Below, piece by piece: positions 16,344-62,760 of a DNA stretch of 64,000 bases. The stretch lies in NCBI GenBank assembly GCA_964023275.1, contig OZ029914.1:48810530-48874529 (forward strand), given 5' to 3'. Numbering within the stretch: the first letter of the stretch is position 1; every line of letters starts with the position of its first letter. Made by a program: the position numbers and the translations under genes. The DNA is from Norana najaformis (taxonomy: Eukaryota; Annelida; Clitellata; Crassiclitellata; Hormogastridae). Below the pieces are notes generated by a model. That model ran no database searches. It was given only the letters and a program-made list of their open reading frames with translations, and had not been told where the DNA came from.

Positions 16344-17592
16344 CAAGCATTGGATCTTTGCAATCTGGAATATTCGTTGCGCTTGTCTCTGTGGGTTTTT
16401 CAGACTCCTCAAACTTCGTCTCACAGTAGATATTGTAAAATATGTTGCTATTGTTAGTATAAATCCAGGTGCTGTTTACCACACTATTGTCGGTTGGAGT
16501 GTTTCTTTCTCCCCAAGACAACAAATTCTTTGCTTACATTCCATTGTTTACATTTCAACACTGGAGCCCAGTTACCAGCAAACGCGACAGAACAGTTTAC
16601 GTTCACAGATTTAGTGATAACCATTGAATAACACCCCACATGGTTTTCTATGAAAAGACAAAAACAAATAGTAATGTTAATAAGTAAATTTTAAATTAAA
16701 AGATGCAAAAAAATTGTACACAGCGTTCTGGTGAAAAGCAGGAATTGGTTTTGCAGTTGACCTTGCTCAACAAACCCATAATTATACTAAAGTATCCTAA
16801 ACAACTTAAACTGGTAATGACAATCATAAGGAAAGCCTAGCTCTAGGGAAGCGAGATCTTCTGGTGGCTGAAAAATTTTCAAGGAGAACGTGTTCTCAAT
16901 ATGTCCACCCTGCTTCTGTTATCTTTTAGATTTGAAATGAAGTGCATTGCACTGGACTTATTCTCCATAGCCCGGCCTCTGACTAAAAGCAATGACCTGG
17001 GATCGACTAAATTTGGGCTGATGTGGGTATGTCATCAATTGATATACCTTGTGTATGATGGTCAGTTGGTTGAATGTTCACCTTGTAATGTGAAGAATAC
17101 AGATTCAAGTCTTCACTGAGATGATCATTGTGTAACAGCCTTAGTGCACAATTGCTTAACATCATCGCCACTGCTTTGTCTTTTTCAAAGTTTAACTATA
17201 AAATATAAAAACAATAATGATAATTAACGACAATGTTGAAATCATAAGATTATATTGTCTAGAATTTCGGAATTAAAACATGCAAAAGAATAAATTCTTA
17301 GTCAAAATTATCAGTTCTGCACTGGCTTCATTTGCAGAGGTAAGTTCCACACAAATGTATCGTTTGTCAGTTGACATTGAAGTAATAACATGCAAACTGC
17401 AGTTTTCATCATCTTCGTTGGAAACAGAAATACCCGAAACCAAGATGTTTCCAAAATAAACGTAGTTAGATGATGTTGTGCTACTCCATGCTATATTGCC
17501 TTTTCTGACGCTTGAAGCACAGTTTAAGGTAACAACTTGTTCATTCAATACAGCAACATTATCTGGCTTTATAACCAGTGTACATTCAACAC
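16344..17592 (-). pseudogene. gene A: two-Ig-domain receptor, pseudogene fragment
   Basis: Two exons on the minus strand. The Ig1 exon spans 17592-17302 (acceptor 'ttttatag', phase 1) and reads 'KPDNVAVLNEQVVTLNC', W about ten residues later and 'RYICVEL', a V/I-type Ig fold closely patterned on Ig1 of genes B and C. The Ig2 exon spans 16647-16344 (acceptor 'ttttcatag', donor GTTAGA) and reads 'VNVNCSVAFAGNWAPVLKC' and, later, 'YCETKF' and 'TSATNIP'. Two lesions are visible. The Ig1 donor is CTAAGA where genes B and C have GTTAGT or GTAAGT. The Ig2 frame shifts by one base around 16515-16535, between 'NWAPVLKC' and 'NSVVNSTW'. No signal-peptide exon was found upstream. I infer a dead family member, although a single-base assembly error could explain the frameshift alone. 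Confidence 0.75.
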
Positions 17593-19077
17593 CTATAAAA
17601 GTATTCAAATAATTCAATAAAAGCACAATTAAAATGTTTCCTAAGTAGTTTCACAAATAAAAATTGTTCAGCACAAATTCTGTAGCTCTATGTCCAGTGT
17701 CACCCATCATTTGTAAAGTCAAAGCATTTAACTGGAAATCTGCAGTTGAAATATGCATGTAAATTAGTCATTCAAAGAAAAATAGCATTAAGCAGATATT
17801 CCGGGTTGATGACATATTTTCGAATATGGAGGCTGTTGCTAACAATTTAAAAGACTTCTTTTCTGTTTTATGTACACCTTGCACCTGTACCACAGATAAT
17901 CTGAACTCTGAACCTTTAAATCGACTGAAGTCAACATTTTGCCAAATCAACAAATAAATTCCGCATTCTGTATTTAGGTAATTAACATTGATGCAGAAAA
18001 TCTTATACATATGCTCATACATATGCCTATGTCTACACGGTTAGACCAATTCTCTACACTAGTTTTTGGAGTAATCAGGCGTATATCCACTGCCAAACTC
18101 CTGAAGCAATGTTCTTAGCTGAGAAACTGTGACCGTTCTGAGAAAACCATCAGAGAGTTGAAAGTTATTTTGCCAGAAATGGGCTCGGAAGGCAAGTAGG
18201 TATAAAATTGGTAAAACCGAGGTCTTTGTTTATTTATATTCATCATTGTTTCAGCTATCATGCTGTAAGTCATTATGTGACTAAGCATTATGTTCATTAA
18301 GCATTTTTATTTTTATTTTTTATGATGCCCTGCTACAAAAAAATTAACATAGGCCTTGATGCTCTAATTTGAAGTCATGTGCATCGACTGTTATGCAAAT
18401 GAGCAAGTCATGTAAATATTCATCCTAATCAGTTTATGAGGAGATTTAATTGATGGCAGCCTGCAGGAGGTTTGAACGTGCTCCAGTTTACTATAGGCCC
18501 ACGTGACTATTACTTATCAGAAACCCTAGGCTCAGCAGCTTAGGACATGTCACATGTATAGAAAAATGTAATTAACGATTTCTCAAAAGTAGCTGTGAAC
18601 AAACCTACAATTATAAAAAAAGTATAACTTGTTATACTTTTGTGATAGAAACATACAATTTGTCATCTAATTATTCAACAATACCAGCCCAAACCAGTGC
18701 AATATCAAAATTACTTTTGATACATCCTGACCTTGTGAGGAGTTTCACAGGCAAATGTCACAAATGTTTCAGACAACTGAAATGCTCTGCTCATGCATGT
18801 CTCCAGCCAAATCCTAGAAAGACTCAAGTGATATTGTATTTGTAATTGTAATCTGACATTTATAAAGCGCCAAGTGCATGCTTCAAGAATAGACTCATCA
18901 GAGGCTTGGTAACGTTCAGTAGCTCCAAAATATACGTCTTTATATGTATTGTGTGCAGATCCATTTCCAAGTGCCTTCTTCTTACAGCTGTTCATGACCT
19001 CTGTGTGACCCTAGATCAGCAAATGCCCATGTGCAGACAATATGCCATCATTATCATCCGTTTCAGATCCACACTCT
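17593..19077. other. no recognised gene
   Basis: Short open frames without support. At about 18815-18870 there is a minus-strand LINE-tail-like end (ATTACAAT units followed on the plus strand by 'tttataaagcgcc'). Confidence 0.4.
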
Positions 19078-19078
19078 A

Positions 19079-19127
<49 letters not shown>

Positions 19128-20165: not shown

Positions 20166-20173
20166 AAATGTAA

Positions 20174-20206
<33 letters not shown>

Positions 20207-21439: not shown

Positions 21440-21477
21440 CCCATATATATATATATGGGACAGAGACGCTATCAATG

Positions 21478-22416: not shown

Positions 22417-22982
22417 ATGGCGAAATTTACCTACGGATACTGCCTGATTTTTCTATCCCTATATGGAATAGCAAATGGTAAGCAATTTTCATTTTAACAT
22501 ATAAACTTTTTCACTTATACCAGCATGTGCCACAGGCATTACAACTGACCCACGATTCGGCTAATTGATCCTTAGCAAATTACTTAGGCCTACCCACTGT
22601 AGGCTGCCTTCTGGTATTGCTGACCTACAGGTTTTGGACTTTGAACGGACTTAATCAACGACTGACTCATTGTGCATTACAATAATGGCGCTGTAGAAGT
22701 CTTCGATGTGGCGAAGCTTATCATTGATGAGATTGGATGGATTGGATTGGGCTGCGGTGGACTAGATTAGATTAGAATAGAACAGACCAATCTGCAATAG
22801 AATAGACTAGATTAGATTAAATAGCAAGTGATTAGTTAATCTGCGACCAGAATTACAGTTAGGTGAATGGGATGGACTAAAGGATGGAGGGATGGACCGA
22901 CAAATAACATTAATGCCATAAAATTTGCTTGCACTTATATTTCACTGCCAATGTTTCTTTCTATAAACAGTTTGCTTTATAT

Positions 22983-23054
<72 letters not shown>

Positions 23055-25700
23055 TAAAATTACAGAAAAGTTGAATCATGTAGGCCTACAAATAAGTCAT
23101 CAGTGAGCATCATTTTGAGTTGTTCTTAAAAGGCATCGTATGGATGATTGCTAGCACCAGTATAACTCTTATATATTGAATCTATATCGGGAGTTACACA
23201 ATTTTACAGCGGTGAAGGACGTGCCATGGACAGGCCCACCGTACAATGTTGCGTTACTGGACGGGGAAGTAGGAACCATTTGCTGCAACACAAATACCTC
23301 TCTGCACTGGCGCTCACGCAGTCCCACAGACGAAGGGCTGGCCAATGGAAAGAATCACACAAAACCAGGGTACAACGTCAGCCAAAGTCCACCTGGAAAC
23401 TACTGCCTACAATTTACTGCAAATAGTTCATCAACTCCTACCAAGATATCCTGTTCAGAATCGGGATCTGGAATCGAAAAGGAAGTCCACGTGATAGTCA
23501 TCGGTTAGTAAAGTATGGCTTATAGTCTAACTTTGAAGTAATAGACATTTCTACCAACAATCTGGCTGACCGGACATCTGATCTGATCTAAATACGTAAA
23601 CTTCTATAGCGCCGTTTCATTGCGCAAAAAGACATCAATCGGTGGTCGCTTCTAAGCCAAACCGCATTCGCTAATCTCACTGCAAACCTTTAAATGCAGA
23701 TATAGATTCTATACTTATCTGATAGTATAATTATCATACTACATATCTCGGCTTTTTCGAAAACGCTAGATGTTTACAATGTTAGGTAAGGGTTTGTTTA
23801 CATTTAGCTTTAACTCAAATTGCTTAAGTTTCCCAATAAAGTTGAGACGATATGTATTAGTCTAATATAATCTATTCTGAAAACTTCTATAGTGCCACTG
23901 TAATAATGCTCAATGCATCAAATGATGTTCGCTGATAAAGGAAATCGGCGTGCAAGCCAAAACCAGGGCAATTCCTGCGTATGACTTGGACGGGGCAGAC
24001 TTGCAAATCATGTTACTGTATTCAGTGATAGTTAAGCTATAGTTTCGATTACAAACACCTTAGTTTGTTGGTAGAATAGCATCATGTATGGTATCAATGA
24101 TTCGGTTACTAAAATACTCGAATAAAAATACTGAGAAACTGTTGCATGATATTCGAATTGTGTTGGCAGAAACTCCCTTCTGCAACAAAACAATAAACGC
24201 TGATGTCATCATAATAACGTGCTCCGCTGAGTTTCGTGGCGACAGTCAGTGGGGTCCATCTTTTGAATGCACAATAATCAACGGCTCCCAAAGAACTGTT
24301 GTCATGAATGGATCTTCCTCTTTCGGAAACGAAGCTGGTCTTCAAAGAACCACCAATACATTTTGGGTACCAAAACATTTAGAAAATACCAGCCTAGAGT
24401 GTTCAATGCAGTTCAGCAAAGATGGGTCTATTACCGAAGGAACTGCTACAAACACTCCAGAATTACACTGGAGATGGACATCACCTGGTCAGTCTAATCA
24501 TTATGACATTAGGTTTACAACTATACGGCAAAATACCTATGCACAGAAACATAAAAACACATACGGACAGACAGACAGGCAGGCAGGCAGACAGGCAGAC
24601 AGGCAGACAGATAGACAGAAATACACGTAGACAAACTGACAGACACAAAGACTCACAGACACAGACACACAGACACAGTTATACAGACACACGGACACAG
24701 AGATACAGACAGACCCACAGACGCACAGACACAGACACACACACGCAGACACAGACACACACACGCAGACACAGGCCCACAAACAGTCACACAGACAAAC
24801 AAACAGACATACAGACACATAGCAGCTTGCAAATGGTTAAGATTTGTAACAAGGTTTGTGTTTCATAATGATTACCTCAAAAACACAGTTCCAATATTGG
24901 CTCTGGGTTGACTGGTTCATAATGTTGCAAATCAAATTCATCAACCATAGGTCTAGTGATAGTCAATGTGTAAATTATTTAAAACATAAGTTTTAGTAAG
25001 CGATATATAATAAGATCCCAATATGGGCCGCTGTAACTGTCCAAATGACTTGAGTCTGTTGATTTGGCTGACCTACGACCACGTTGATTAAGTTAGAGAG
25101 AGAGAGAAAGACAGACAGACGGACACAGACACAGAAAGAGAAACAGACAGCAGACAGACACAGACACGCACAGAGAGAGATATAGAGAAACAGACAGTCA
25201 GACAGACAGACAGACACATACAGCGAGAGAGAGAGGAAAAGAGAGAGAGAGAGAGGAAAAAGCCGTTTGGTTTCGGTGTGTACTTGGTTCAAGAACGCCA
25301 AGAACGCTGAGGCTGTGACTGGGTCAGATTCAATTCCGAGTTTAGACCTATAGGATTCATATCACTGTAACAGGGTTATACATTTCCTTTTCGTAAAAAT
25401 TATTTCGTACAATCATGCAGCCTATACATCTCTCAAAGTGAGAGCACTGGGCTACATTTGACAGAAATAGGCTTTAAGAAGTGCAGTGTATTTCGATCGA
25501 CATTTAGAACAGCTGTTTCTTAATACTTAGAAAACAATGAATCACCGAGCCGTTCCTAATTCTGTAAATTAAAATTAATGTTTAACAGAACGTGAATTGG
25601 TCAAGTCAAAGAAGAATGATACTAAAGAAATTCCGCCGTGGGGAATCACCTTGATTGTCCTTACTGTTGTTGGAGCAGTATTTGCAATTGCAATCGTGCT
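22417..25700 (+). CDS. gene B: two-Ig-domain type I membrane receptor
   Basis: Four exons can be placed: 22417-22477, 23210-23503, 24170-24487 and 25589-25700. The ATG lies in a good context ('cgccatgg'). The first exon encodes a signal peptide (hydrophobic 'CLIFLSLYGIA') and ends in phase 1 at GTAAGC. Ig1 (residues about 21-118) has 'PPYNVALLDGEVGTICC', W soon after, and 'KISCSE'. Ig2 (about 119-224) has 'ADVIIITC', 'SQWGPSFEC', 'LECSMQF' and 'GTATNTP'. The last exon gives a basic, acidic stalk and then a membrane span 'WGITLIVLTVVGAVFAIAIV'. The first three introns are all phase 1, as usual for shuffled Ig exons. Several N-glycosylation sites (NHT, NVS, NSS, NKT, NGS, NTS) fit an extracellular protein. 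The final exon either continues through donor GTGAGT in phase 2 or stops at the TGA 25701-25703, leaving almost no cytoplasmic tail. Ligand and function are unknown. Confidence 0.8.
22982..23053. repeat. (AT)n microsatellite in gene B intron 1
   Basis: About 36 uninterrupted AT units. The same intron also carries a degenerate GATTA/GAATAGA stretch at about 22725-22870. Confidence 0.95.
24560..24830. repeat. CAGACA-type minisatellite in gene B intron 3
   Basis: Tandem 'cagacaggcaggcagacagg' units grading into 'cacagacacagacaca'. The Cys/Val-rich minus-strand frame is a repeat translation. Confidence 0.9.
25090..25258. repeat. GAGA/CAGA purine-rich simple repeat in gene B intron 3
   Basis: Alternating 'gagagagagaaagacagaca' and 'cagacagacagacacata' blocks, strongly purine-biased on the plus strand. 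Confidence 0.9.
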
Positions 25701-26056
25701 GTGAGTAACAAAAGCTTGGCCCACTTTAAAAAGTAGACCTAAATAAGAATTTAAGTAACAAAATTCTAGTATATTTATACTTGTATACTCAGAGATTCAT
25801 GTGTATGTATAGTAGGTCGTGGAAGCGGATTTTGTTTTATTACCATAAAAACGGTAATTTTGCGGCAAAGTAATGCCATCACTAAAGCATTCGAACACGA
25901 ATTTACTGTTTAAGACACTGTACTCTGTGCTAATAGGCAAATTACGCGCCCTCAGGTTTAAATCACTTTACTTTCAGCATTGTATTAGGAATTGCAGGTT
26001 TCAAGAGTACATAGGTCGTTTAGGTCGTGACAATGTCTGTCACAATGAGCATCCTG

Positions 26057-26058
26057 TA

Positions 26059-26113
<55 letters not shown>

Positions 26114-45562: not shown

Positions 45563-48500
45563 TTATTCTTTTACAGCGAAAATCGCTATGAGACCTCCTG
45601 TTAGGACTACTAAGCAACACGATACCACATTTGCAACATTGTAGCTCGGAGGATCTGAAAGTAAGAAAGAACATTAAAGAAATACAACACAAGATATAGT
45701 TTGATACTTCAAAATGCGAATGGTTTGATGTGAAGCAGTTTAAAAACGCTATTTGAAAACAGCCACACCTATCGAACTTCAAGCCAACGTGTTCTTTAGT
45801 TTCAGATTTAAATACGGTAAAAAAAACTAATTTTCTACGCCTGAAGCAGGTTGTCATTAATAGCTCGCACCACTATCGTGGCATTCTGTGATCCGTTCAA
45901 TTTGCAAAGAGGCGCCTGTGTTGGACGTGGCTTTCCAATGGATTATAATTTTGTTTACGATTAGGGCCTATATTAGAGTCATTGCAGCAGTGGACTATCA
46001 CTTGAGTGACTAATAGATCTGTTATTACTCTTAAGAAAATCTACAATTTCTCTATTATTCTAAGTCGGATTTGAATATTGCAATATGAAGCGAATAACAA
46101 TAGAGGCTAATGAAAGGTAGGATTAATCACTTGGGGCCCAATGCATAGTGTAAACGGGATCCTTGTGCATGAGTTAATGGAATATCGTAAAGAAATGCTA
46201 CAACGGTGGATTGTATTTATATTTAAAGAAATGGGAAGGTGGCGGATTAGATCGATTAAGGTTAAATTTCTTGAAAAGGTGGGTCTTCACTTTGAATGGA
46301 AAGCCTGCGGAGTGATAGAGGAACTTGAGATATGTTTTCGGAAGAGGGATAAAAACATCAGACCAACCATCAAGCTTAAATGGAGGCGACTTCCATTCAT
46401 CAGAGTAGTTTGGAACATTCGCTGCTGTCACTTCAGCCGGTTTGTCAGTTTCACTGAAGTATACAATGGCGGTATAAAAAATCTCCTTGGTCGTCAATGG
46501 CATCGTTAATGTGCTGTTTACTTGACCATTCTCCACAGATCTTCTGGCTTTGTTCACCTCTTCTCCATCGCTGGTATTCCATTTAATCTGCGGGGCCCAT
46601 TCTCCATAAACTCCGATAGCACACAAAATTGTTACGTCATTCTCAGTCTCGTTGAATGTGCAGTTTAGATCCAACTCTTAGAAATAGAAGTACAGATATT
46701 CATGATATATCCAAAGTAGCAACACAACCAAGACTCCAGATATTCAAAAAATATCTCTAAGTATTGTTTAATTTTACTAGTAAACGTTACACTTAAGATG
46801 TACCTTTGGTATTAGGAGCTGGAAAACTGGAATTCATGTAGTGTTTCCCCACTAGATGGCCAATCAAGCGAACTATTCGCTTTAAGCTTTGGTTATCTCT
46901 CGAGTGAGACTAGTTTCCGTTTTGGCCAATTTTCCGGTGAAATGCGTTATATATTCAAGAAATATCTTTGAAGTTGTCGCAAAGAGTAAAAACATGCGAA
47001 CTGAGTTGCCTAGGCGTCTCAAGGATAGCAGACGCACGAATGTGTTTTAATGCCTTTGATAACTTAGCTGCGCTTAATTTCTAAACTGGCAAAAGCCAAA
47101 CCACTTTTTGGTTATAGACTGGAGTTAAAATCGATGACACACTTCTTATGACCGAGCTATCCAGCTAGGCCTGTGCTGTCCTTGTGCATAAATTTTCCAG
47201 ACGTGGGGGTGCAAAGGGGTAAGATGGACCCTTTAAGCACTGTTTGATCAATAATGACCATAATTATCAGATTCTGAACATGTTTTTTAACATTTTTAAT
47301 ATTCAAGCACTTCAGTATTGTTAATCAGCAGTAAACTGTCTTCTCTGCTTATAATATTTCTGTCCTATAGGCTATATTGAAGTATGACCTCAGGGGTCCA
47401 TCTTGTCCTGCGAACTGGGGTAAGACGGACATAATGTAGGGGTAAGACGGACAGTCAAGATCTGGTCATCTATAGTACTACAGTTACTTTAAAATTTTAA
47501 GGGCCTATGCTAAGAAACTAAGAATGCTAAGAAACTGCATGTGATCATGACAGGCCTATTGCCTTTAATGTCACTGTTCACAATCTCTGCACATAAATGA
47601 ATCCTGGATGTGCTTGGGCTTTCCCAGTACACCGGCACATGACAACTCGTACCACGTCTGACATTTGATGCAGGCAATCCAATCTTCAACTGATTCGTCT
47701 TCGATCTCTCCACATCCTGCACAACACACTGTAGGCTTATTAGCCTTACTTTTCTTTCCTAGATGGATGTTTGCCTTTTTCTTCTTCATTTTCTTCTTAG
47801 AGTCAATGCTGCGGCCTCTTGGTTTATTCTCTCGGCATGTCAGCTTCTTTTTCTTGTGGTTCTTTTTAGATCCAGAATCAAGACAAACTCTCTTTTGTTC
47901 TGTGACTTTGAACTGCAAGTCCAACTTTCTTTTCTTAGGCTTATCTTCATAAAAGCACAATTCCTTTTCTAAATCAGTAAGGTGCTTTTGTGACGTCAAC
48001 ACACGAGAACTTGTAGCACGGCTTTTTCGTTTTCCTTTATTGTCACTGAAGACTTTCTTAGGCAGGGGCCTCAATACTTCAAATCTGTTGCTTTTGATGG
48101 AATGAAGATCCCTTTTTGATGCATTTCCATCACCTTCAGACACTCTAGCTGACTGATCTTGTCCATCAGAATGACGTTGTCCGCTGTCAGTTGCAGTTGA
48201 TTCAGGTGGTCTATCAAAGTCAGATTTTTCACTAGTGGTCACGATTGATAGAATCTGTGCATCAGACTGAAGCTGTCTAATTTGGTTCACTTCAGCTGAC
48301 TGACCTGGTTCATCAGATTCAGCTTGCTCACCAGTGATCATGCCAGTGGGCTGAACCTGAGACTGAAACTGTCTGTCGCGGCATCTGCATAAAACACAGG
48401 CCTAAGTTAACCAAACATAGTCCACAGTACCGTATCACATTCATGGGGTAAAAAGGACACTTATTCTGCAGTGATAATAAACTGAACTGATACATAGTAG

Positions 48501-51471
48501 TATGCAATATGAACTCCCAGAAAAATAACTACTTACAGTTAATGTAAATAACACTCTTTGGGTTATCTGTTGTGAAACATAAACCGGGTGATAAACTTTC
48601 GTGTAGGGGTAAGATGGACAGACAACACTACCCTTCGGTATCAGATAGCTGTTACAGTATATGCGACCACAAAGCGTATGTTTTAATACGCTAGATAACA
48701 AGCTAATATATATGCCTATTAAATAAAATACTATTTATAGGCGAGGGATACTTACTGTCCACACAGTCTCCTTAGCCGTTTATTTAAGTTTTTTATTTTA
48801 CTTTCGCCGAAAAACACTTTCTTCCGCACAGCTGTTGATCATCGATACGCCACGCCCTTTCCGGTAGACTGGTACCCGACTTTGCATGTTTTAATAACGC
48901 GTCGATAAATAATGTCCATCTTGCCCCCGTTACGGGGTAAGATGAACATTAAGAAATGTACGTTTTGATGGGTTTTGCGTTGAGGGTCCATCTTACCCCG
49001 GGGTCCATCTTCCCCCTTATGACCTACCCAGCGCTTTTGCGAGATACCTGCAGGCGCTAAAGAAGTGTTCGAATACACTCGTACATACATACAAATCTGG
49101 GAACGCAGGAAATTTAAGTCCACCCTTTAATCCATAAACAATCATATATAAATCTTGATATGCAAGAAATGTAAATTCAGCCTAGAATTTTGGACTAGAT
49201 CAACAGAAAAGATAGGGCACCACAATTATTTGCAAGTACACAACATGACAGCAATAGCACAAATATCATAAATAAGAAAGAATCACGAAATGGATATGAA
49301 CCGGTCATCAAACCATGACAATTACAGAAGTTGATTTGACAAAGAAAAAGTCTAAGGAATTGAACTCCCTGACACAGTTAGTTCTGAAGAAAAAAATTGC
49401 AAAGACAGCACAGATTCAAGAAGCTGACAAATGGAGGAAAGCTATCCACTGCCTGAGAGAAGAAAAAAGTTAAGAAGCCTGCATATATTTATTAAGATCT
49501 ATTTGTTATTATTATAAAATAGAACTCGTAAATACCGTTGATAATAATAGATATTTTTGTATTTCACATTTTCAGGACTTACCAATAACGATGAGGTCAG
49601 CGCTAACTCTCATGAGCGTGCCCGGTTCGGTGCACATGTATCGTTTGGCGGTTTCCTCTCTAGCTGTTATGTTCAAGTTGTACTTTCCCGGTTCATGATT
49701 TTCAATTTCACAGCATGAGCAGGGACATGCTTTTGGGTTCAGAGCATATCCATTCCAGAGTTCCTCTTTTTGTGAGTTGTTTCCAAGTAAATGCCACTGT
49801 AACTTTCGGTCTTCGTTATCCGATTTGCATTTAATAGTGGCCGATTCGTTGAGCAGCACCACTGCGTTCTCTGGTTGCTCAATAAGAATCGCATATGTCA
49901 CTGAAATAAAAACAAGCATCTTTTATTTCTTATTGTTTAAAAAATCAATAGTCGTATAGTATAGCAACGAAGAAGGCAGGTAGTAAGCGTCTTGCCTATC
50001 GATTTTGTCTTGACTAAGCGTCTGTGAATAAGCTGGTTCCGCGACTTAGCTTTCTTTGGGCGTTGTAGAAATCTCGAGTTTACGATTGCGTTAAGCTTCA
50101 TATATTCAGCCATCTTATAGGCGCTCAGACGTGAATTGCAAACATGAACTTCGACTGGATGGCCTTTGTACTCGAGAGTTTTATTTTCATATTATGTGAA
50201 CAATATGCCCTACTGGCCTAGTTAGATACATTGGTTAAAGCGTACATCAAGGCGCCTCTGTGCGTGAGGATGCCGGTTCACAAACCTACCGTGGCTTGTT
50301 TCAGAGATTTGAATCTCGGGCTCGTACACGGGGACCTTAAATGGCGTGGCGCCTATTCAAACGGGCAGCGGTGGCGAAGAGTCTCACCCGATAAATTCAT
50401 GGAAAATTGAGCAGGGTCAAAGCCATACGGTCGCTATAGAAAATCGTGTACATGTACATTTTACAATGTAAAGTTCATGTTTACTAAAGAATAACACAAG
50501 TAGTGAATATTAACGTTCAGTTAGAGCATACATATCTAACTGACACAAATGGTGTTCTAAATTTTCTTGAATGCGAGATAATAAAGTATTTGAAACTTTT
50601 AAACAATTGAATTACAGTAATTATGCTTACAGGACATTGAGTTGTAAAATGATAGGTTCTCTATAATATGCAGACTATAACTCTGGCTTCGTGAAACTAA
50701 GATATTCTGGATAAATAAGTAATTATTTAATTAATCCAACAAGTTCTTGCTACCTCACACATTAAATGGCTGATAATGAAAGAATTTTATCTTACCTTCT
50801 ATTAGAACGAAGAGACACAAAGGAGTTAAAGTTTGGCTTCTTGAACCCCAAAGTCTTCGGGTTTTTCCTGAAAATCAGATGTTAGACAACAATGCATAAG
50901 TTGATCAAAGTAGATTAACAAGTGGCTTGGTTGTCATAAATTACATCTACATCTTTAACAACATAAAGCAGATGTTTTCTAGATACTTTGTAATGATCCA
51001 TTAAATGACAACCTTTTCGGTGCTGGTTTCCTAGTTTAACAACAAACTCACCGACAACGGACAGTCGGTCTGTTGTGGTGAGTTTGTTGTTAAACTAAGA
51101 AACCAGCATTGCAGAAGAACGAATCCTGTGTTCTGAGAGAAGCCAACCTTAGGATGTTGCCCCACTGGCGACCGCGGAAGAGGCAGAGTCGAATCCTGAG
51201 ATAGAACTTTACAGCGTTGCCTCCCTTAAAAGCGACCAATCTGGACCTTCCTTGAAGGGAACAGACACTAAGGGCAGAGATGGTATTGAAAGGCCATTTT
51301 AAGTCAAAAGTAGAAGGTGCAGTGAGGCGAGTGGCTCGGAACGTAATACTGGGTTTGAGTCAACCTCGCCTAGCGAAATAATGCACCGTCCGCGACCCCC
51401 ATAAATAAATATATATATATATATAGGCCCTAGTGAGCATTTTAGCCAACGGTCCACTTACTAATTTCCAT
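45563..51471 (-). CDS. gene C: two-Ig-domain membrane receptor, complete five-exon model
   Basis: Exons in transcript order: 51471-51462, 50867-50796, 49900-49583, 46676-46368 and 45654-45563. Every listed junction has GT and AG, all four introns are phase 1, and the total of 801 bases gives 266 codons plus stop. Exon 1 supplies only ATG and two more codons. Exon 2 gives a basic stretch and hydrophobic 'LTPLCLFVLIEG' (signal or anchor). Ig1 (residues 28-133) has C52, W63 and 'RYMC' (C117), with an unusual 'CPCSCC' cluster at 86-91. Ig2 (134-236) has C139 and C152, 'GEWAPQIKW' and 'VTAANVP', but lacks two cysteines present in genes A and B. The last exon gives a membrane span (about 246-263) and a tail of only a few residues. 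The Ig1-Ig2 intron contains a DNA transposon. A role in recognition or adhesion is an inference from the architecture only. Confidence 0.8.
47213..49020 (-). mobile_element. DNA transposon with GGGGTAAGATGGAC-type ends
   Basis: Left end 'aaaggggtaagatggaccct' (from 47213) and right end (to about 49020), whose reverse complement is 'aagggggaagatggacccc' and then 'ggggtaagatggaccct', form inverted termini about 1.8 kb apart. Extra internal copies of the motif occur near 47409, 47440, 48444 and 48605. The element lies entirely inside the Ig1-Ig2 intron of gene C and carries the PHD-like ORF on the minus strand. The superfamily is not certain; the ORF suggests a pogo-like element. Confidence 0.7.
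47571..48384 (-). CDS. C-terminal part of pogo-like transposase with PHD-type finger
   Basis: An open frame of about 270 codons runs from an acceptor-like site ('gttttatgcag', exon start about 48384) to the stop at 47571. The first third is Ser/Gln/Asp-rich. Next comes 'LRPLPKKVFSDNKGKRKSRA' and 'VLTSQKHLTDLE', a layout typical of the region after the DDE_1 domain in pogo-like transposases, then a Lys/Arg-rich stretch. The C-terminus is a zinc-finger-like 'CCAGCGEIEDE', 'DWIACIKCQTWYELSC' and 'FMCRDCEQ'. In PHD fingers the residue after WY is normally His; here it is Glu, so one zinc ligand is missing. No DDE catalytic domain was found nearby, so this is a remnant or the final exon of a split gene. 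Confidence 0.6.
49315..49473 (+). CDS. small Lys-rich open frame, uncertain
   Basis: ATG at 49315, 52 codons, stop TAA 49471-49473. It reads 'TITEVDLTKKKSKELNSL', 'QLVLKKKIAKTAQIQEADKW' and 'RKAIHCLREE', an amphipathic, helix-like composition that looks more protein-like than its neighbours. It lies antisense in a gene C intron, between the DNA transposon and the Ig1 exon. It could be a fragment of a retrocopied gene. I recognise no family. Confidence 0.25.
   Translation: MTITEVDLTKKKSKELNSLTQLVLKKKIAKTAQIQEADKWRKAIHCLREEKS
49985..50090 (+). mobile_element. LINE-A 3' tail fragment (copy 5)
   Basis: Reads 'cttgcctatcgattttgtct', 'gcgtctgtgaataagctggt' and 'cgttgtagaaatctcgagtt', then a single ATTGCG-like tail unit. 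Only about 100 bp of the LINE-A 3' end is present, in a gene C intron. Confidence 0.85.
50215..50466 (+). repeat. SINE-A copy 3, full length
   Basis: Begins 'ctggcctagttagatacatt', with A-box-like 'ttggttaaagcgta', B box 'ccggttcacaaacc', body 'ggcgcctattcaaacgggca' and 'ctcacccgataaattcatgg', and tail 'ggtcgctatagaaaatcgtg'. It is the best copy for defining the family's 3' end. It lies in gene C intron 2, about 130 bp downstream of a LINE-A tail. Confidence 0.85.
51021..51108. repeat. imperfect inverted repeat, about 37-bp arms
   Basis: The left arm 'tgctggtttcctagtttaac' plus 'aacaaactcaccgacaac' (51021-51058) is mirrored by the right arm ending at 51108, with a loop of roughly 12 bp. Mismatches are few. 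It lies in gene C intron 1, and may be a small foldback element. Confidence 0.85.
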
Positions 51472-51865
51472 TTAAACTGATGTCAAAATTTTCTCTCCTG
51501 ACTGGAACAGGCAAACTGCAACAACAGAACCAGAAATTTTAGTTTATTTTATACCAAGCCTATGAAGATTGTTACTGTTGTAGAGTAACCGTCTCTCTTT
51601 TATCATTTACTAGTAATGTAACGCATAGTGGCGGCTCGAGGATTGTTTGCGTCGGGGGTCAAGAAGATTTCCTGAGGGGCGCCACATTTTAGCAGTCCCC
51701 AGTTCATGGGTTTGGTGTGAGGGGCGCCAGCGTATAACCAAGAGGGGCGCGTTGGCAACACTCCCCCGCGCCTATAGCTAAATCCGCTACTGGTAATGCA
51801 ATGTAAAAATGACAATTTACCGAGCATTTAAGTTAGCTATTAGAAGCGTCGTTAAAACATTCAAT
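51440..51865 (-). repeat. segmental duplication, copy 1: gene C first exon and upstream
   Basis: The segment contains gene C's ATG exon (51471-51462), a splice-acceptor-like 'ttgttgcag' upstream of it, and flanking DNA. It is homologous to 62625-62760 plus 63870-63990: 'cacttactaatttccattt' pairs with 'cacttactgatttccattt', and 'gagcatttaagttagctatt' pairs with 'gagcatttaagttagcgatt'. Copy 1 differs by carrying the MITE at 51625-51797. Confidence 0.85.
51625..51797 (-). mobile_element. TAGTGGCGGA MITE, reverse copy, with empty-site support
   Basis: Left end 'catagtggcggctcgaggat' and right end 'agctaaatccgctactgg', with inner 'gaggggcgccacatttt' and 'ggggcgccagcgtataacca'. It is flanked by 'taatgtaa' and 'taatgcaa', an 8-bp near-perfect duplication. 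The duplicate locus (63915-63945) reads 'actaataatgtaacaatgta' without the element, an empty site. This supports a hAT-type transposition event after the segmental duplication, or precise loss in the other copy. Confidence 0.85.
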
Positions 51866-53639: not shown

Positions 53640-54675
53640 ATTTGCTGCCATTCTTTACCGAAGACAACAACCTAGTATTCTGTAATTGACATCAGCAACT
53701 TATTGAAGAAAATTGGTCTGTCGGATTACAGCCCAGATGAGTGGCGTCTTTTTATCGACAGTTCAAAACGTAGTCTGAAATGTGTGCTTTTAAATAACGC
53801 AAACAAATTTGGTTCTATTCCAATCGGTCACTCCACCAGGATGAAAGAAGAGTACAATGCCATCTCTTTAGTACTGGAAAAGATAAAATACAAAGAACAT
53901 CAATGGGTAATTTGTGTAGACTTGAAGATGGTAAATTTCCTCCTTGGTCAACAAAGTGGCTACACAAAGTATCCCTGCTTTTTGTGTCTTTGGGACAGTA
54001 GAGCCAAGCATGAACATTGGACAAGAAAAGATTGGCCTTCGAGGAAAGACATGGTGGTTGGAGCTCAAAATGTAATCAAGGAATCTTTGGTGGCACGAGA
54101 TAGGATCATACTGCCACCACTACATATAAAGCTAGGCCTGATGAAACAATTTGTCAGGGCTTTGAATAAAGAAGGTTCATACTTCGAATACATAGTACAC
54201 AAGTTACCAGGAATTACAATGGAAAAATTGAAGGCTGGAATCTTCGATGGTCCACAGATCAGGCAACTTATGAATGACCCACTTTTCATACCATCAAAGA
54301 ATGAAATCGAATCTTGTGCCTGGTCTTCCTTTGTTCTTGTAACTAAAAATTTTCTTGGCAACAAGAAGGCAGACAATTATGCACAACTAGTAGAGGATAT
54401 GCTTCTTCATTTCAACAAGCCTGGCTGCAACATGAGCATTAAAGTCCATTATCTCCACAGTCACTTCGATCGCTTTCCAGAGAATCTTGGTGACTTCAGC
54501 GAAGAGCAAGGTGAAAGATTTCACCAAGACATCAAAACAATGGAAAATCGATATCAAGGAAGATGGGATGCACACATGATGGCAGACTATTGCTGGAATA
54601 TTATGTGCGATTGTTCCGGCAGATGACACACTCGGAAATCGTACAAAAGGAGCTCCTTCGGTGTCGAATGACTTG
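53640..54675 (+). pseudogene. transposase-like gene, decayed paralogue 1
   Basis: The frame reads 'DEWRLFIDSSKRSLKCVLL', 'HQWVICVDLKMVNFLLG', 'GYTKYPCFLCLWDSRA', 'ILPPLHIKLGLMKQFVRAL', 'KAGIFDGPQIRQL', 'KNFLGNKKADNYAQLVE', 'VHYLHSHFDRFPENLGDFS' and 'EEQGERFHQDIKTMENRYQG'. It aligns end to end with the intact gene at 56451. A frame change around 53683 separates an upstream 'FFTEDNNLVFC' from the body, and a TGA at 54624-54626 precedes 'HTRKSYKRS', the counterpart of the intact gene's 'THKRKSKC' end. The N-terminal cysteine-rich domain is not legible. The family is found as uncharacterised proteins in many invertebrates, and its RNase-H-like layout suggests a DDE-type transposase origin. Confidence 0.8.
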
Positions 54676-55995: not shown

Positions 55996-56450
55996 TGCGT
56001 GTGGGAATATTAGCATCAAACTTGGCAGCATTGGTTGTCTAACATAGCATAATAACTAAAATAGTTAAATCTGTATGACATAGTATAACAGTGGATCACA
56101 ACGATTTTGCTACTGAAAGTAATGCATGTGCCTTATATTGATTCAAATGTGAAGTCAGAATCTGCCCAGCACGTCTAGATTTTAAGTTATGCATGCAATC
56201 AAGTAATGACGTAAGGACTCGTTTTCGGTTATGTCTGTACATTCTGTTGTATGTGTCTCCACGATTGCTGCCAGTGATACGTGCATGCCTGCAAGTGTCA
56301 CCTGAAATATTCCTAACAGCAAGCCTGCAGCAGCCGCTAGACATGATTGGGCATGTCAGCATCAATACCAGTATATAAGGCGAGATTGCGTAGAACGAAG
56401 GTGAAGTTTTCTTATATAGCTGTAGCTAGTGTGTGAGATTTAATTTTGAA
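55996..56450. other. 5' flank of the intact transposase-like gene
   Basis: No coding feature. It would contain the promoter of the gene beginning at 56451; I see no clear core promoter element. Confidence 0.35.
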
Positions 56451-58124
56451 ATGAATAGGCGAGGCTGTGTTAACCATCCAGACAATTGTTGCTATGTTTG
56501 TGGTAAATATACTCTTTGTGACCAGCGCAAGAAGTTAACTAAGAGAGTGATGATTGCTTACAAGTATTATTTTGGATGTCAAATCGGAGACGTGGATAAA
56601 AGTTGGGCACCTCATGTCTGCTGCACCGTGTGCTACTCTGGGCTTACACAGTGGCTGAATGGCAAAAGGAATTCAATGCCGTTTGCTGTGCCTATGGTGT
56701 GGCGCGAGCCAAGAAATCATCATGCACACTGTTATTTCTGCATTACTAAAGTTGCTGGATTTTCAAAGAAAAATAAGTCTAAAATCGTTTATTCTGATTG
56801 CGAGTCCGCTCTAAAGCCAGTGCCGCATGATGAAGAGAATCCAGTACCATTTCCGCTTGCTGCGGGTGCTGATGAAACGGACAGTTCTGATGGTAATACA
56901 GAAGATGACGTTACTGTTTATGAATCCAGTGATCAAGATTTGGAAGAGGGTAGGCCGCATTTGATAAGGCAAGGTGAGTTAGATGATCTGGTGAGGGACC
57001 TATCTTTGTCAAAGGAGAAATCTGAACTGTTAGCCTCCAGACTAGGGGAGTGGAACTTGCTTCAAAAAGGTACCACAACATCACACTTCCGTTATCGTCA
57101 CAAACAGTTAGCTACATATTACAAGCTGAAAAATGATATCTGTTTCTGTACTGACGTGAACGGTCTCATGCTGAATTTAGGTTGCGAATATGTTTCTGAT
57201 CAGTGGAGACTGTTCACAGATTCCAGCCAAGCGAGCTTGAAAGCTGTGTTGGTGCACAATGGTAACGAAAAGCCGTCTGTTCCTATAGCCCACGCTGTAG
57301 GCCTCAAAGAGACATATGATTCAATGAAACTCATTTTGAAAGTGATCAACTACTCAGACCACAAATGGAACATCTGTGCGGACCTCAAAGTGGTAGCACT
57401 TATTCTAGGCCTACAGCTGGGCTACACAAAACATATGTGCTTTTTGTGCTTGTGGAACAGTCGTGATGACAGCAACCATTACAAAGTGAAACTGTGGCCT
57501 CCTAGATCTGAGCACATTGTTGGTCGGCACAACGTGCAACACGAACCATTGGTTGATCCATTGAAAGTGTACTTACCACCAATTCACATTAAACTCTGCC
57601 TCATGAGGAATTTCGTAGTGGCAATGGATCGTACTGGACAAGGCTTCCAGTATCTGAGAGATAAATTTGGAGCCGTCAAAACTGATGCTAAGCTGAAGGC
57701 TGGAATTTTTATTGGGCCAGAAATCCGCGAACTAATGCGTGATACTGTATTTAGAACCAAGCTCAACCCACTGGAATTTGCCGCTTTGGATGCATGTACG
57801 TTGGTGGTGCAAAACTTCCTTGGGAATCACCGAGCTGAGAACTATGCTGAACTCGTTAGCAACATGCTGACAGCATATAAGCAACTCGGCTGCCGGATGT
57901 CACTAAAAATACATTTCTTACATTCCCATCTGGATTTTTTCCCACCAAACTTGGGTGATGTAAGCGATGAGCATGGAGAGAGATTCCATCAAGACATCTC
58001 CACCTTTGAAGCAAGATATCAGGGCCACTGCAATTCCAACATGATGGGCGATTACTGCTGGTTTCTGCAGAGGGCAACAGCGGCCACTCACAAGCGCAAG
58101 AGCAAGTGTCTAAAGCACTTTTGA
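56451..58124 (+). CDS. transposase-like gene, intact single-exon paralogue 2
   Basis: An uninterrupted 557-codon frame starts at ATG 56451 and stops at 58122-58124. The N-terminus is a cysteine/histidine-rich, probably zinc-binding module: 'CCYVCGKYTLC', 'YYFGCQIGDVDKSWAPHVCC', 'TVCYSGLTQW' and 'NHHAHCYFC'. An acidic linker follows ('ETDSSDGNTEDDVTVYESSD'). The body has 'DQWRLFTDSSQASLKAVLV', 'HKWNICADLKVVALILGL', 'GYTKHMCFLCLWNSR', 'LPPIHIKLCLMRNFVVAM' and 'HFLHSHLDFFPPNLGDVSDE' with 'HGERFHQDI'. The conserved Asp in ADLKVV and the His/Asp/Glu-rich HSHLD..DEHGERFH block are candidate catalytic or metal-binding residues. It lies 1.8 kb downstream of a decayed paralogue in the same orientation. 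No flanking inverted repeats were identified, so it is either a young element whose ends I missed or a retained, possibly domesticated gene. Confidence 0.8.
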   Translation: MNRRGCVNHPDNCCYVCGKYTLCDQRKKLTKRVMIAYKYYFGCQIGDVDKSWAPHVCCTVCYSGLTQWLNGKRNSMPFAVPMVWREPRNHHAHCYFCITKVAGFSKKNKSKIVYSDCESALKPVPHDEENPVPFPLAAGADETDSSDGNTEDDVTVYESSDQDLEEGRPHLIRQGELDDLVRDLSLSKEKSELLASRLGEWNLLQKGTTTSHFRYRHKQLATYYKLKNDICFCTDVNGLMLNLGCEYVSDQWRLFTDSSQASLKAVLVHNGNEKPSVPIAHAVGLKETYDSMKLILKVINYSDHKWNICADLKVVALILGLQLGYTKHMCFLCLWNSRDDSNHYKVKLWPPRSEHIVGRHNVQHEPLVDPLKVYLPPIHIKLCLMRNFVVAMDRTGQGFQYLRDKFGAVKTDAKLKAGIFIGPEIRELMRDTVFRTKLNPLEFAALDACTLVVQNFLGNHRAENYAELVSNMLTAYKQLGCRMSLKIHFLHSHLDFFPPNLGDVSDEHGERFHQDISTFEARYQGHCNSNMMGDYCWFLQRATAATHKRKSKCLKHF

Positions 58125-58485: not shown

Positions 58486-58743
58486 AGGGAACCAGCGTCG
58501 CGGCGTCTGCGCTTTATATCTCAATTCTATATTTTCTAACTTTTCGACGTCTTTTCTGAATTTTTTAATTGTTCTTTCTTACCGGATTTATGCTCTGTCT
58601 TTGGTGAGTTCGTTCCTATTTGTTTCAACATTTAATCAACTTAAGATTCGCCTAATTTTTGTCCTTTTTGCACTCGTTCGCCTGCGTCTTTACCTTCCGC
58701 CATTTTAGCTTCATCACACTGCCACGTCATCTTAGATCACATA

Positions 58744-60414
58744 ATGTACAATTCAATCATTCTTCTTATTTTCGGTCTACGTTTCATGATCGCCTTCCAT
58801 ATTAGTTGCCAACCCTTCCACACCCGCTTGCCCTACATTGTTCCTACAGCCAAACATTCTTACTGCGCCCAATTTGGCACAACGACTATGCAGTATGGAC
58901 GTATGTGTTTTATTCCTTTATCGTTCTTCCTAACTTCATATCTCAGGCGACCACCGCAGCACCTCACCCGCCATATCATCTTCAACATACTAGACCTGCT
59001 TTCCGGGGACATCCACCCAAATCCTGGCCCACTGGATTTTTATTCATGTCCACCTCCCTCAACTCCTACCTATCCTGCTCCTTCCAGAATTTCTTCCTCC
59101 AGCATCCTCGACAATGCTCAAAATACTGACAACAGCCGCTTCTTACTTTGCACGCTAAATATTCGATCATTACTACATCCTGCACATTCCCAAGAAATCA
59201 GTGATATAGCCCTCCCTTCTCACCCGCCTGACATATTTGCCTTATCTGAAACCTGGTTTAATTTAAGCACCACTCTTGCGCAATATGAAGACTGTATTCC
59301 TCCTGGCTACCATCTTTACAGCACACCTCGTCCCTGCAAACCATCTAGCCCTTCTCATAAAAATCCAACTGGCGGTGGTATTGCCTTTCTCACCCGAGAA
59401 CCTGCCACAGTTTTAGACTCACCTGGTTACTGTTTCCACTCTTTTGAATGTGCATCAGTTACGCTTAAACTTTCTCACACAAATCTGACTACCTTTAATG
59501 TATATCGCCCTCCATCCTCCTCTTCATATTCAAGTCCTCCATCGGTCTTCTTGAAAGAATTTACCACCCTCCTCTCTACTGCCGCCACTACACCTCATGA
59601 ATTTCTGATTACAGGTGACTTCAATATACATGTCGATAACCCCTCTGACACATTTGCTTCTGAATTCCTCACCCTTTTGTCCTCAACTAATCTGCTTCAA
59701 CATGTCAAATTCCCCACCCACATTCACAATCACACACTTGACCTTATTATCACATCATCATCATCCACTCTATCACCTGATATATCTTTCTCTTTTGACA
59801 CGCCATCTGATCATTACCCCATCTTTACATATCTTAACATTCTTCCGACACCACGTCCTGATCCTGTCTTTCATTCTTTTCGTCGCATCAGTTCAATAAA
59901 TATTGAAGCCTTCATACAAGATATTTCCTGTTCTGACCTCGTTTTAAATCCACCCTCCTCCCTGAATGACCTTCTCTCTTCCTATAACACCACTCTTTCC
60001 ACTATCCTTGACAAGCATGCTCCTATTATTACCAAATCCCGTTCTCACTCTAACAATCCTTGGTTCAATTCCTATCTCCAGGCCTTCAAATCTTTCCGGC
60101 GACGCCTTGAGCGTGCCTACAAACGCACCAGGGATCCTCAGCTTCTCTCTGCCCTTAAATCTGCCACAAATAAATACCATCGCCTTCTTACTGCAGCTAA
60201 ACAGAGATTTTACTCCTCACTAGTTCGTTCTCGATCCTCTAGTCCTCGCCTTCTCTGGAAAACCATTAACCAACTACTCCATCGGAACTCATCTAGCCCA
60301 CTTCCAAATTCTCTTCCGTCTTCTTCAATAGCCGACTCGTTCTATTCTTTCTTTTCGAACAAAATTAGTACCCTCCGTCTCTCTTCAATCTCTCCTCCCC
60401 AAAGCCACCAATAA
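58744..60414 (+). CDS. LINE-A ORF, N-terminal and endonuclease part
   Basis: ATG at 58744, 556 open codons to TAA-type termination at 60412-60414. Residues 1-22 are hydrophobic. Residues 89-96 are 'DIHPNPGP', a 2A-like motif. The APE endonuclease follows: 'CTLNIRSLLHPAHSQEIS' (about 130-150), 'DIFALSETWF', 'NPTGGGIAFLTRE', 'FNVYRPPSSSS', 'FLITGDFNIHVDNPSDTFA', 'HTLDLIITSS' and 'SFDTPSDHYPIFTYL', so the key Asn, Glu, Asp, Asn and His positions of the fold are present. The frame ends prematurely by a one-base shift around 60385-60410; beyond it the reverse transcriptase continues in another frame. This part looks recently functional. Confidence 0.9.
   Translation: MYNSIILLIFGLRFMIAFHISCQPFHTRLPYIVPTAKHSYCAQFGTTTMQYGRMCFIPLSFFLTSYLRRPPQHLTRHIIFNILDLLSGDIHPNPGPLDFYSCPPPSTPTYPAPSRISSSSILDNAQNTDNSRFLLCTLNIRSLLHPAHSQEISDIALPSHPPDIFALSETWFNLSTTLAQYEDCIPPGYHLYSTPRPCKPSSPSHKNPTGGGIAFLTREPATVLDSPGYCFHSFECASVTLKLSHTNLTTFNVYRPPSSSSYSSPPSVFLKEFTTLLSTAATTPHEFLITGDFNIHVDNPSDTFASEFLTLLSSTNLLQHVKFPTHIHNHTLDLIITSSSSTLSPDISFSFDTPSDHYPIFTYLNILPTPRPDPVFHSFRRISSINIEAFIQDISCSDLVLNPPSSLNDLLSSYNTTLSTILDKHAPIITKSRSHSNNPWFNSYLQAFKSFRRRLERAYKRTRDPQLLSALKSATNKYHRLLTAAKQRFYSSLVRSRSSSPRLLWKTINQLLHRNSSSPLPNSLPSSSIADSFYSFFSNKISTLRLSSISPPQSHQ
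59008..59031 (+). other. 2A-like ribosome-skipping motif in LINE-A ORF
   Basis: The codons encode DIHPNPGP, preceded by 'NILDLLSG'. The 2A consensus is D-[V/I]-E-x-N-P-G-P; here E is replaced by H while NPGP and the upstream Leu-rich stretch are retained. Similar NPGP motifs at the N-terminus of non-LTR retrotransposon ORFs are known from sea urchins and other invertebrates. If active, translation would release a 95-residue leader peptide with a hydrophobic N-terminus and restart at the Pro. Activity with the E-to-H change is not certain. Confidence 0.65.
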
Positions 60415-60419
60415 CCAAC

Positions 60420-62150
60420 CTGATGATGCTCCCTCCCCCACTCATGACTCCCCACCCTTCCCACCTCGATCCTCATTATCTGTCTTTCAACCCACTTCAG
60501 AGTCTGAAATATTGCACCTGTTAAAATCACTTCCAAACAAACAGTGCGAACTTGACCCTATACCCACCTCCTTACTGAAAGACTGTGCAGCTGTCCTTGT
60601 CCCAATCATTACCAAAATAGTTAATCTCTCCTTATCTACGGGTAATTTCCCCCTCCTATTCAAACACTCTCTTGTTACCCCTCTTCTCAAGAAATCATCT
60701 CTCGACAAGGAAATTCTTTCAAACTACCGGCCTGTTTCTAACCTGACTTTCATCTCCAAATTAACTGAACGGATTGTCCTCTCTCGAATCAATGACTATT
60801 TAGCTTCTAACTCACTCATTAACCCACACCAGTCTGGTTTTACTAAACGCCACTCAACCGAAACTCTGTTGACATCTCTCTACAACAAGCTTGTTTCTGC
60901 CATTTCTCATCAACAGGTTTCTTGCCTCTGTCTCCTTGATATCTCTGCAGCCTTCGACACCATAGATCACAATATCTTACTCCACCGACTTTGAACCTGG
61001 TTTGGTTTTGCTGACACTGCTCTCCTATGGACACAGTCTTATCTCTCCTCCCGCTCTTTCTCTGTTAAAACTTCGGAAGCCTCTTCTCAGTCATACCCTC
61101 TCACTCGCGGAGTTCCACAAGGCTCCGTTCTTGGACCTCTTCTGTTTATCCTCTACACTACCCCACTCAGCTCACTCATTAAAGCATCCTCCGTTGACCA
61201 TCACCTCTATGCTGATGACACCCAACTATTCATCTCTTTCTCTCCAAATTGTTTCAATGAATCTACAGATCATCTTCTTTGTGTGGTTAAATAAATCTCC
61301 TCTTGGATGACATTTAATCTCTTATGCCTGAACCCATCTAAAACTGAATTCATACGTGACCAGCTCAAGAAAATTCCTGACCCTTCTATCTCCCTCATCC
61401 TAGACTCTGCCTCCACCCACACCTTTAATACTAACTCTTCTGTCCGTAATTTAGGTGTTATTTTCGACCAGAACCTTACTTTTTCTGATCACCCATCTTT
61501 CCCGCTCTTGCTTTATGCATATCCGCGACCTTCGCAGAATTCGCCCTATGCTTGACTTCAAAACTGCATCTACCATTGCCACATCCATAGTCCATGCAAA
61601 ACTTGACTACTGCAATTCACTTTTCCTCAATATTGACACAACCCAGATAAATCGCCTACAAGCTATCCAGAATGCTCTCGCACGTGCTGTCACCGAAACC
61701 CCCAAACACCATCACATCACCCGTGTTCTCAGATCACTTCATTGGCTTAAAATACCAGAACGAATAGAGTACAAAGTCTTATCCCTTACCAGTCACACAC
61801 TTCAAAGCTCCCAACCCTTCTATTTTCGTCAATTATTTACTATCCAACCACTCCGTTCAACCCGCTCCTCATCTGTCCTAACACTTCTTCGCCCTCCCGT
61901 CACCTCATCCTTAAAATTTGGAAATCGCTCCATAGCCATAGCTGCCCCACCCCTTTGGAATAAACTCCCGCCAGAATTGCGACAGTTGTCTGGTCAATCA
62001 TACGAACTCACCAACACTTCACCTCTTTCAGTTTCTGCGCAGGTCTTTCACTCAAGACTGAAAACACTTCTTTTCCAGAAATCTTATCCTGATTCTTCCT
62101 CTTCCCCTTATCTCTCTTCTCGCTTCAATTTCAAACAGCATCCACCGTAG
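60420..62150 (+). pseudogene. LINE-A reverse transcriptase part, interrupted
   Basis: Motifs in order: 'PTSLLKDCAAVLVPIITKIV', '[20 protein letters not shown]', '[18 protein letters not shown]', '[15 protein letters not shown]', 'TRGVPQGSVLGPLLF', 'LYADDTQLF', 'LNPSKTEFI', 'KLDYCNSLFL' and 'LHWLKIPERIEYKVL', ending 'WNKLPPELRQLSGQSY' and 'FHSRLKTLLFQ'. Interruptions are TGA at 60992-60994, a TAA near 61291, and a frame change near 61500. The catalytic YADD is intact. The same interruptions are found in the truncated copy at 35996-37707. Confidence 0.92.
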
Positions 62151-62302
62151 CCGTCCGACTGTCTGAGTGCCTGACTCCTGGATCTTGACCCTTTTGCCTA
62201 TCGATTTTGTTTTGACTGAGCGCCTGTGAATAAGCTGGTTCCCGCGACTTAGCTTTCGTTGAGCGCTGTAGAAATCTCGAGATTACGATTACGATTACGA
62301 TT

Positions 62303-62624
62303 CCCCAGATTTTATAGTCTACAGGATTTAGGTTTGGACTGTTTTTGCAGGAGGTATGAATTCAGGAGTTTCATTCGACATCAGTTTTTCGGTTTCACAA
62401 GTGACGTTACAGTGACGTCATTTATTAACGGTCCAAGATTTCAATGAGCGTTAGCCATTACAGTCATGATTAAATTCCATTTGAATTTTCTTTCAATTAT
62501 GAATATTTTGCAGTCATAAACAAGAATTGTAGGGTTCGCTTTTTCACTCACGGTGTATAGGCTACACATTGACGGTTGGGCTGACTACGGGACTTCACTG
62601 TGACAATATTATGTCCTTACTGAA
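62303..62624. other. no recognised gene
   Basis: Intronic-looking sequence downstream (minus-strand sense) of the duplicated gene C first exon. I found no copy of gene C's signal-peptide exon here. Confidence 0.4.
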
Positions 62625-62760
62625 CTCTTGAGCCAACTGCCCACTTACTGATTTCCATTTCCACTGCGGTCAAAACTTTCTCTCCTGTTCCGTACTAGGC
62701 GAACACTGTGTTTACTGCAATGACAAAACCAGCAACTTAAATGGCGTTAACTGTTCCAAT
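62625..62760 (-). repeat. segmental duplication, copy 2 left part, with first-exon homologue
   Basis: Homologous to 51440-51540. The minus strand contains ATGGAAATCA followed by donor GTAAGTGG (exon homologue 62658-62649), matching gene C's ATGGAAATTA plus GTAAGTGG, and an upstream acceptor-like 'gtcattgcag'. This is either the first exon of a further receptor gene whose remainder was displaced by the LINE-A insertion at 58.5-62.3 kb, or an orphan duplicate. Confidence 0.8.

Follow-up and report, generated by a model that had tools for sequence, protein, structure and literature searches.

Three loci with paired immunoglobulin exons

We analysed a stretch of 64,000 nucleotides of contig C2 (C2:48810530-48874529, hereafter "the window") in a genome of 608 Mb and 17 contigs, of which C2 represents 8.5%. 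The window contains three loci, A, B, and C, which share two consecutive types of immunoglobulin (Ig) exon, Ig1 and Ig2; A lies on the forward strand and B and C on the reverse strand, so that the two orientations reported in an initial annotation of this DNA were recovered. The same annotation had described at least three loci of one architecture, with signal peptide, Ig1, Ig2, and membrane span on separate exons. While the Ig1 and Ig2 exons are common to all three loci, only A shows the whole plan, most of which is also present in B, and the plan is kept between paralogues elsewhere in the genome (paralogue loci are labelled L followed by a number; L039 and L045 are one place). The exons and associated features are as follows, with E-values, unless stated otherwise, from the family profiles described below and slashes marking exon junctions.

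Gene A
22417..22477 (+): signal-peptide exon, MAKFTYGYCLIFLSLYGIAN; ATG, GTAAGC donor, phase 1; 50% identity over 20 amino acids (aa) in L055
23210..23503 (+): Ig1 exon, both boundaries in phase 1; E = 0.0035
24170..24487 (+): Ig2 exon with G.W.P motif; E = 4.7e-11
25589..25700 (+): stalk and transmembrane exon; the adjoining TGA overlaps the splice donor CT/GTGAGT
25978..26014 (+): last coding exon; end of the membrane span and short tail, IVLGIAGFKST, then stop

Gene B
50796..50867 (-): probable signal-peptide exon, TRRLWG...LTPLCLFVLIE/G; acceptor, open frame, and donor region kept in L014 and L011
49583..49900 (-): Ig1 exon, both boundaries in phase 1; Pfam Ig_3 E = 4.1e-4, under the Pfam cut-off
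46368..46676 (-): Ig2 exon, E = 3.2e-42; second canonical cysteine absent
45563..45654 (-): transmembrane exon, ending in IFAVKE and a stop; 59-82% identical in L039/L045, L044, L046, and L047
40196..40563 (-): displaced 3' flank; 83% match to L039 259-625, where it is contiguous with the transmembrane region

Locus C
17300..17592 (-): Ig1 exon, open, without a GT donor; E = 1.5e-10
16342..16690 (-): Ig2 remains, split between two reading frames; E = 7.9e-9 for one piece and 9.8e-7 for the other

The grouping of these loci is based on family profiles trained on relatives (27 Ig1 and 11 Ig2 sequences, with B included as L009 and L043, and with A and C excluded), which were searched, without filtering, against 1676 open reading frames (ORFs) from the window and from eight ordinary Ig loci. 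Above the inclusion threshold, the only matches within the window were to A, B, and C. The Ig1 profile recovered B at 4.6e-41 in addition to the C and A exons listed above, while the Ig2 profile recovered all three loci; the top ORF of the ordinary Ig loci reached only 0.3 (Ig1 profile) and 0.028 (Ig2 profile), and the top score among other ORFs of the window was 0.48 and 0.87, respectively.

Gene A (22417-26014, +) is the most complete of the three, its five exons summing to 822 bases, or 273 aa as counted from the coordinates. The signal-peptide, Ig1, Ig2, and transmembrane exons are joined in phase 1, as the initial annotation had it for the family's introns, and a phase-2 donor then leads into the short last exon. 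In A, L055, and L056 (3/3 examined), the membrane span is followed at the matching position by a GTRAGTA-type donor, and the overlap of stop codon and donor seen in A is shared by these two paralogues. A and L055 both have IVLGIAG next to the acceptor when read in phase 2. Because this acceptor and IVLGIAG recur in-frame in L055, A is predicted to encode a 273-residue protein with few intracellular residues, which bears out for this gene the earlier description of the receptors as short-tailed. The tail of A, FKST, has no tyrosine motif, and that of L055 has 17 residues and one tyrosine, with no immunoreceptor tyrosine-based inhibitory or activation motif (ITIM or ITAM) recognised by eye from the motif as commonly known. 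L055, on contig C11, keeps the exon order of A, with identities of 50% over 20 aa (signal), 70-71% (Ig1), 61% (Ig2), and 52% over 25 aa (transmembrane). Across the genome, A Ig1 has five matches at E <= 1, namely itself, three relatives located on C11 (70-71%), at C2 49.39 Mb (57%), and at C2 48.73 Mb (47%), and one weak match; A Ig2 has 50 matches at the same threshold, including itself, and many of these coincide with places matched by B Ig2. A long GATGAT-type array (26060-28591) directly follows the last exon of A and ends at an assembly gap (N).

In gene B, the Ig1-Ig2-transmembrane order is kept in four close paralogues, and the second canonical cysteine of Ig2 is absent from all five sequences of this group. 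The probable signal-peptide exon (50867-50796) has no ATG, and neither a start codon nor a first exon of B was located. An AG/GTAGTA donor follows the membrane span in all four paralogues (4/4); in B, a one-base gap after the span, relative to L039, L046, and L047, leads to an early stop before this conserved donor position. Two insertions further distinguish B from its relatives. The first, at 47189-49023 in the Ig1-Ig2 intron, is absent in L046, L047, and L039, and the second, which lies beyond the transmembrane exon at about 40.5-45.3 kb, is absent in L039, L046, and L047 (L044 is too short to tell). The 3' flank of B has been shifted by inserted sequence to about 4.7 kb from the transmembrane region, and mostly accounts for the 3' sequence found at 39.9-40.6 kb, which may be what had been annotated, without a position, as a 3' relic; only 39.86-40.02 kb is a duplicate (70-74% identity). 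The duplicated first exon reported alongside the relic did not hold up, its likely source being a match between 51428-51500 and 62615-62687 (81% over 73 bp) that, together with two more short matches, is non-coding, with no common reading frame seen.

Three further observations concern gene B and B-type sequence. The 47189-49023 insertion resembles a DNA transposon, with GGGTAAGATGGAC-like repeats near its ends by eye, and contains an ORF (47574-48401, -) with a weak PHD-finger match (E = 0.0099, under the cut-off). The open frame 40156-40401 was, on visual inspection, not retained as a candidate tail exon. In L013, a sequence resembling an L040-type signal peptide (2496-2549, -; 78% identical) lies upstream of a B-type Ig1, an arrangement that hints at exon exchange between subfamilies.

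Locus C, judged by its sequence, is a pseudogene, and the initial annotation had reported one in the cluster. Its Ig1 exon has lost the donor, and the reading frame of its Ig2 is broken. No signal-peptide or transmembrane exon of C was located.

A paired-exon family concentrated on one contig

Counting matches at E <= 1, with self and fragments included, the genome search with B Ig1 yielded 102 matches, 95 of them on C2. The corresponding search with B Ig2, in which 150 out of 248 candidates were scored, yielded at least 150 matches, with 134 on C2. At the stricter threshold of E <= 0.01, C2 holds 73/77 Ig1 and 123/138 Ig2 matches. On this contig, the intervals 39-44 Mb and 47-50.5 Mb contain most of the matches, some further ones for Ig2 being located at 0-2 Mb, and between 47 and 50 Mb most Ig1 matches lie on the forward strand (34/41, against 7/41 on the reverse strand, the B group being among the latter).

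The two exon types are ordered with respect to each other genome-wide. When a partner was sought within 8 kb at E <= 0.01, an Ig2 match was found downstream on the same strand for 57 of the 77 Ig1 matches (median distance 1090 bases), as opposed to 5/77 upstream and 0/77 on the opposite strand. In-frame stops occur in seven of the 102 B Ig1 matches, indicating some decay, while the other 95 (fragments included) are stop-free. The initial annotation had suggested counting paralogues genome-wide, and this count sustains its picture of a cluster of two-Ig membrane receptors in both orientations, shaped by duplication and loss, at a scale far larger than the window showed. Two of the Ig1 copies, L028 and L029 (C8:12.09 and 12.12 Mb), have identical protein sequences, each followed by an Ig2 match.

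Domain identity of Ig1 and Ig2

All five Ig exons of the window score under the curated Pfam cut-offs. Ig_3 is matched by B Ig1 and, at 0.05, by C Ig1; B Ig2 reaches 0.023, the only Pfam match of A Ig1 is to REJ (9.1e-4), and A Ig2 has none. Among the 27 Ig1 members, six match Ig_3 at E <= 0.1, B being the best and none reaching the Ig_3 cut-off, while two of five Ig2 members match this domain (best member, Ig_3 2.9e-6 and Ig_2 4e-5). In comparisons with the PDB, an Ig1 profile built from three sequences matched Robo1 (1.9e-5, whole chain) and neurotrimin (2.6e-5), and one built from 27 sequences matched an antibody light chain (3.2e-4), with T-cell-receptor V domains also among the matches of these profiles. 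By sequence-profile comparison, both Ig1 and Ig2 are therefore assigned to the immunoglobulin superfamily. Since the exons fall under the Pfam cut-offs, many genes of this family could escape domain annotation; none of the best 150 of 1317 candidate places in a genome survey with PF00047 was seen at C2 40-44 or 47-50.5 Mb.

This survey also revealed dense groups of PF00047 Ig exons distinct from the two-Ig family, at C2:10.3-12.8 Mb, C15:22.4-23.7 Mb, and C3:5.39-5.58 Mb, with further groups at C1:63.62-63.64 Mb, C7:27.2 Mb, C8:33.1 Mb, and C13:15.2 Mb.

Constraint on the Ig exons

Ratios of nonsynonymous to synonymous substitution (dN/dS) were computed pairwise by the Nei-Gojobori method and are averages without a significance test; site-specific selection may exist. 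For Ig1, the mean was 0.48 in the B group (10 pairs, 0.35-0.80) and 0.54 across 16 relatives (120 pairs), a subset of 30 loci retrieved from the B Ig1 genome search, with two close pairs at 0.34 each; 12 windows along Ig1 in the same 16 relatives ranged from 0.41 to 0.89, and none exceeded 1. For Ig2, the B group mean was 0.80 (10 pairs, 0.47-1.25), with 2/10 pairs above 1. Gene A gave 0.72 (Ig1) and 0.90 (Ig2) against L055, and 0.25 and 0.54 against L056. As mean dN/dS is below 1, these exons are under coding constraint, and the overall pattern is one of constraint with relaxation rather than of positive selection on average. The genes had initially been called fast-evolving; this is partly supported, the paralogues being diverse but the substitution ratios averaging below 1.

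Interpretation and comparison with known systems

Taken together, these results are best read as a germline repertoire of recognition receptors, with a layout like that of Hydractinia Alr or Botryllus fester. On this reading, a very large germline family encodes small type I membrane proteins, with A and B among its members and C as a dead one. Ig1 would be the outer, V-like domain and Ig2 an inner, C2/I-like domain with a G.W.P motif, accompanied by a conserved stalk, and the tail would, at least in A, be very short. We hold this explanation with middling confidence, a judgement that covers jointly the membership, the domain types, and the recognition role. The ligand, bound by Ig1 and perhaps also by Ig2, would sit on the surface of another cell or of a microbe. 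The tail of A is too short to accommodate a signalling motif, so that the protein would either signal via a partner chain or work by adhesion. As at loci of immunity and allorecognition, local duplications and insertions of transposons would make the repertoire expand and contract.

The Alr genes of Hydractinia are described as clustered single-pass membrane genes of the immunoglobulin superfamily that share little identity with one another and include many pseudogene-like models, in one large region (PMC11067881). The family described here is likewise made of clustered, diverse, single-pass Ig genes with pseudogenes; Hydractinia, however, is a cnidarian, and the likeness drawn here is one of described layout. 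For Botryllus, fester and the fester co-receptors (FcoR) of fuhc are presented as large polygenic families with signal peptide, Ig, and membrane span in polymorphic blocks, and with a sushi domain; fester spans the membrane three times, and the tails of FcoR are long and able to carry ITIM or hemITAM (PMC12065747). The model of gene A, in contrast, comprises two Ig exons and a single span followed by a short tail, and shows none of these distinguishing features, no search aimed at sushi domains having been made. Cellulose synthase is a tunicate marker, and the genome has 0 matches to PF03552, which contradicts a tunicate genome; membership in Botryllus or the tunicates was accordingly rejected. 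The KIR/LILR and CEACAM genes of vertebrates are also clustered germline Ig receptors with phase-1 exons and gene birth and death, as in the family analysed here, but gene A provides no evidence of an ITIM or of a charged transmembrane segment.

Several observations weigh against the repertoire interpretation or parts of it. Its immune or self-recognition component is drawn from the layout of the genes. The match of A Ig1 to the family profile is weak by itself, and we retain A as a member because its Ig2 matches strongly and the Ig1 of its relative L056 reaches 4.4e-5. L055 keeps the donor of the signal-peptide exon but lacks an ATG at the place matching the start of A, and the Ig2 profile had no significant match in the PDB (best 0.36). 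In the groups compared, Ig1 is more constrained than Ig2, the opposite of a simple hypervariable-tip model. Finally, no tail exon was found for B, nor for L040-L042 and their partners, and in the other subfamilies the membrane span is followed by basic residues and a donor, so that some of them may have long tails.

A bolder version of the repertoire reading is that of an undescribed, chromosome-scale recognition complex, probably of a protostome, in which paired V-like and C2-like Ig domains would characterise at least 57 receptor genes, and possibly well over 100, almost all of them on a single chromosome and many liable to be missed by domain annotation, forming a germline self/non-self or pathogen repertoire comparable to those of Hydractinia and Botryllus and of independent origin. 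We advance it tentatively and think it unlikely in this full form. Should its genes prove to be expressed and polymorphic, the family would constitute a large repertoire of germline recognition receptors, probably of a protostome, which annotation based on Pfam might for the most part overlook. It would then permit testing whether independent animal groups use the same V-like plus C2-like two-Ig plan for recognition, and asking why the outer domain is more constrained here.

Among the alternatives, the family may be a known, named one of this animal group, described under another name. The Hydractinia Alr and Botryllus fester/FcoR genes demonstrate that such families exist (PMC11067881, PMC12065747). 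On the other hand, titles and abstract openings of mostly non-subscription literature presented no two-Ig membrane family in a protostome, with the oyster, pearl-oyster, and snail immune families listed there by title only, and we consider such an identity possible but doubtful.

An expanded adhesion, neuronal, or gamete-recognition family, rather than an immune or self-recognition one, would fit the average purifying selection and the short tail of A, which suits adhesion, as well as the Robo1 and neurotrimin domains heading the PDB list of the three-sequence Ig1 profile. Family size, clustering on a single chromosome, and pseudogenes are, from general knowledge, more typical of recognition repertoires, and we judge this alternative unlikely.

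Many copies could also be decaying remnants, perhaps with A and B among them, in a largely non-functional block. C is dead, B combines its one-base gap and early stop past the membrane span with two large insertions and no located start, and in-frame stops interrupt a few Ig1 matches. Against such general decay stand the 95/102 stop-free Ig1 matches (fragments included), the mean dN/dS below 1, and the complete and open model of A, which together make it improbable. Chance open frames or transposon-encoded Ig-like sequence might be suspected in a window rich in mobile elements, but are barely credible given profile matches above threshold specific to A, B, and C, the ordered Ig1-Ig2 pairing genome-wide, and splice sites conserved between paralogues.

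Mobile elements and other features

Nuclear fragments of mitochondrial COX1 lie at C15:412 kb and 570 kb, and COX1 was found only as nuclear copies. In these possibly mutated fragments, AGR codons occur at several universal serine positions and ATA at universal methionine positions, as judged from the commonly known motifs, a pattern that speaks against Botryllus and tends to favour a protostome code. Contrary cases are AGR once at a universal glycine and AAA at two universal asparagines, the latter of which would suit the code of echinoderms, so that a protostome is a possible rather than a firm assignment. Within the window, two long ORFs (53676-54626 and 56430-58124) are alike by eye, the second without a Pfam match, and a weak match to both adjoins paralogue L044. 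A non-LTR (long terminal repeat) retrotransposon is represented by its 3' part in two copies, 36003-37712 and 60605-62302, which are 96.7% identical; the endonuclease lies at 58645-60411 and part of the reverse transcriptase at 60332-60994.

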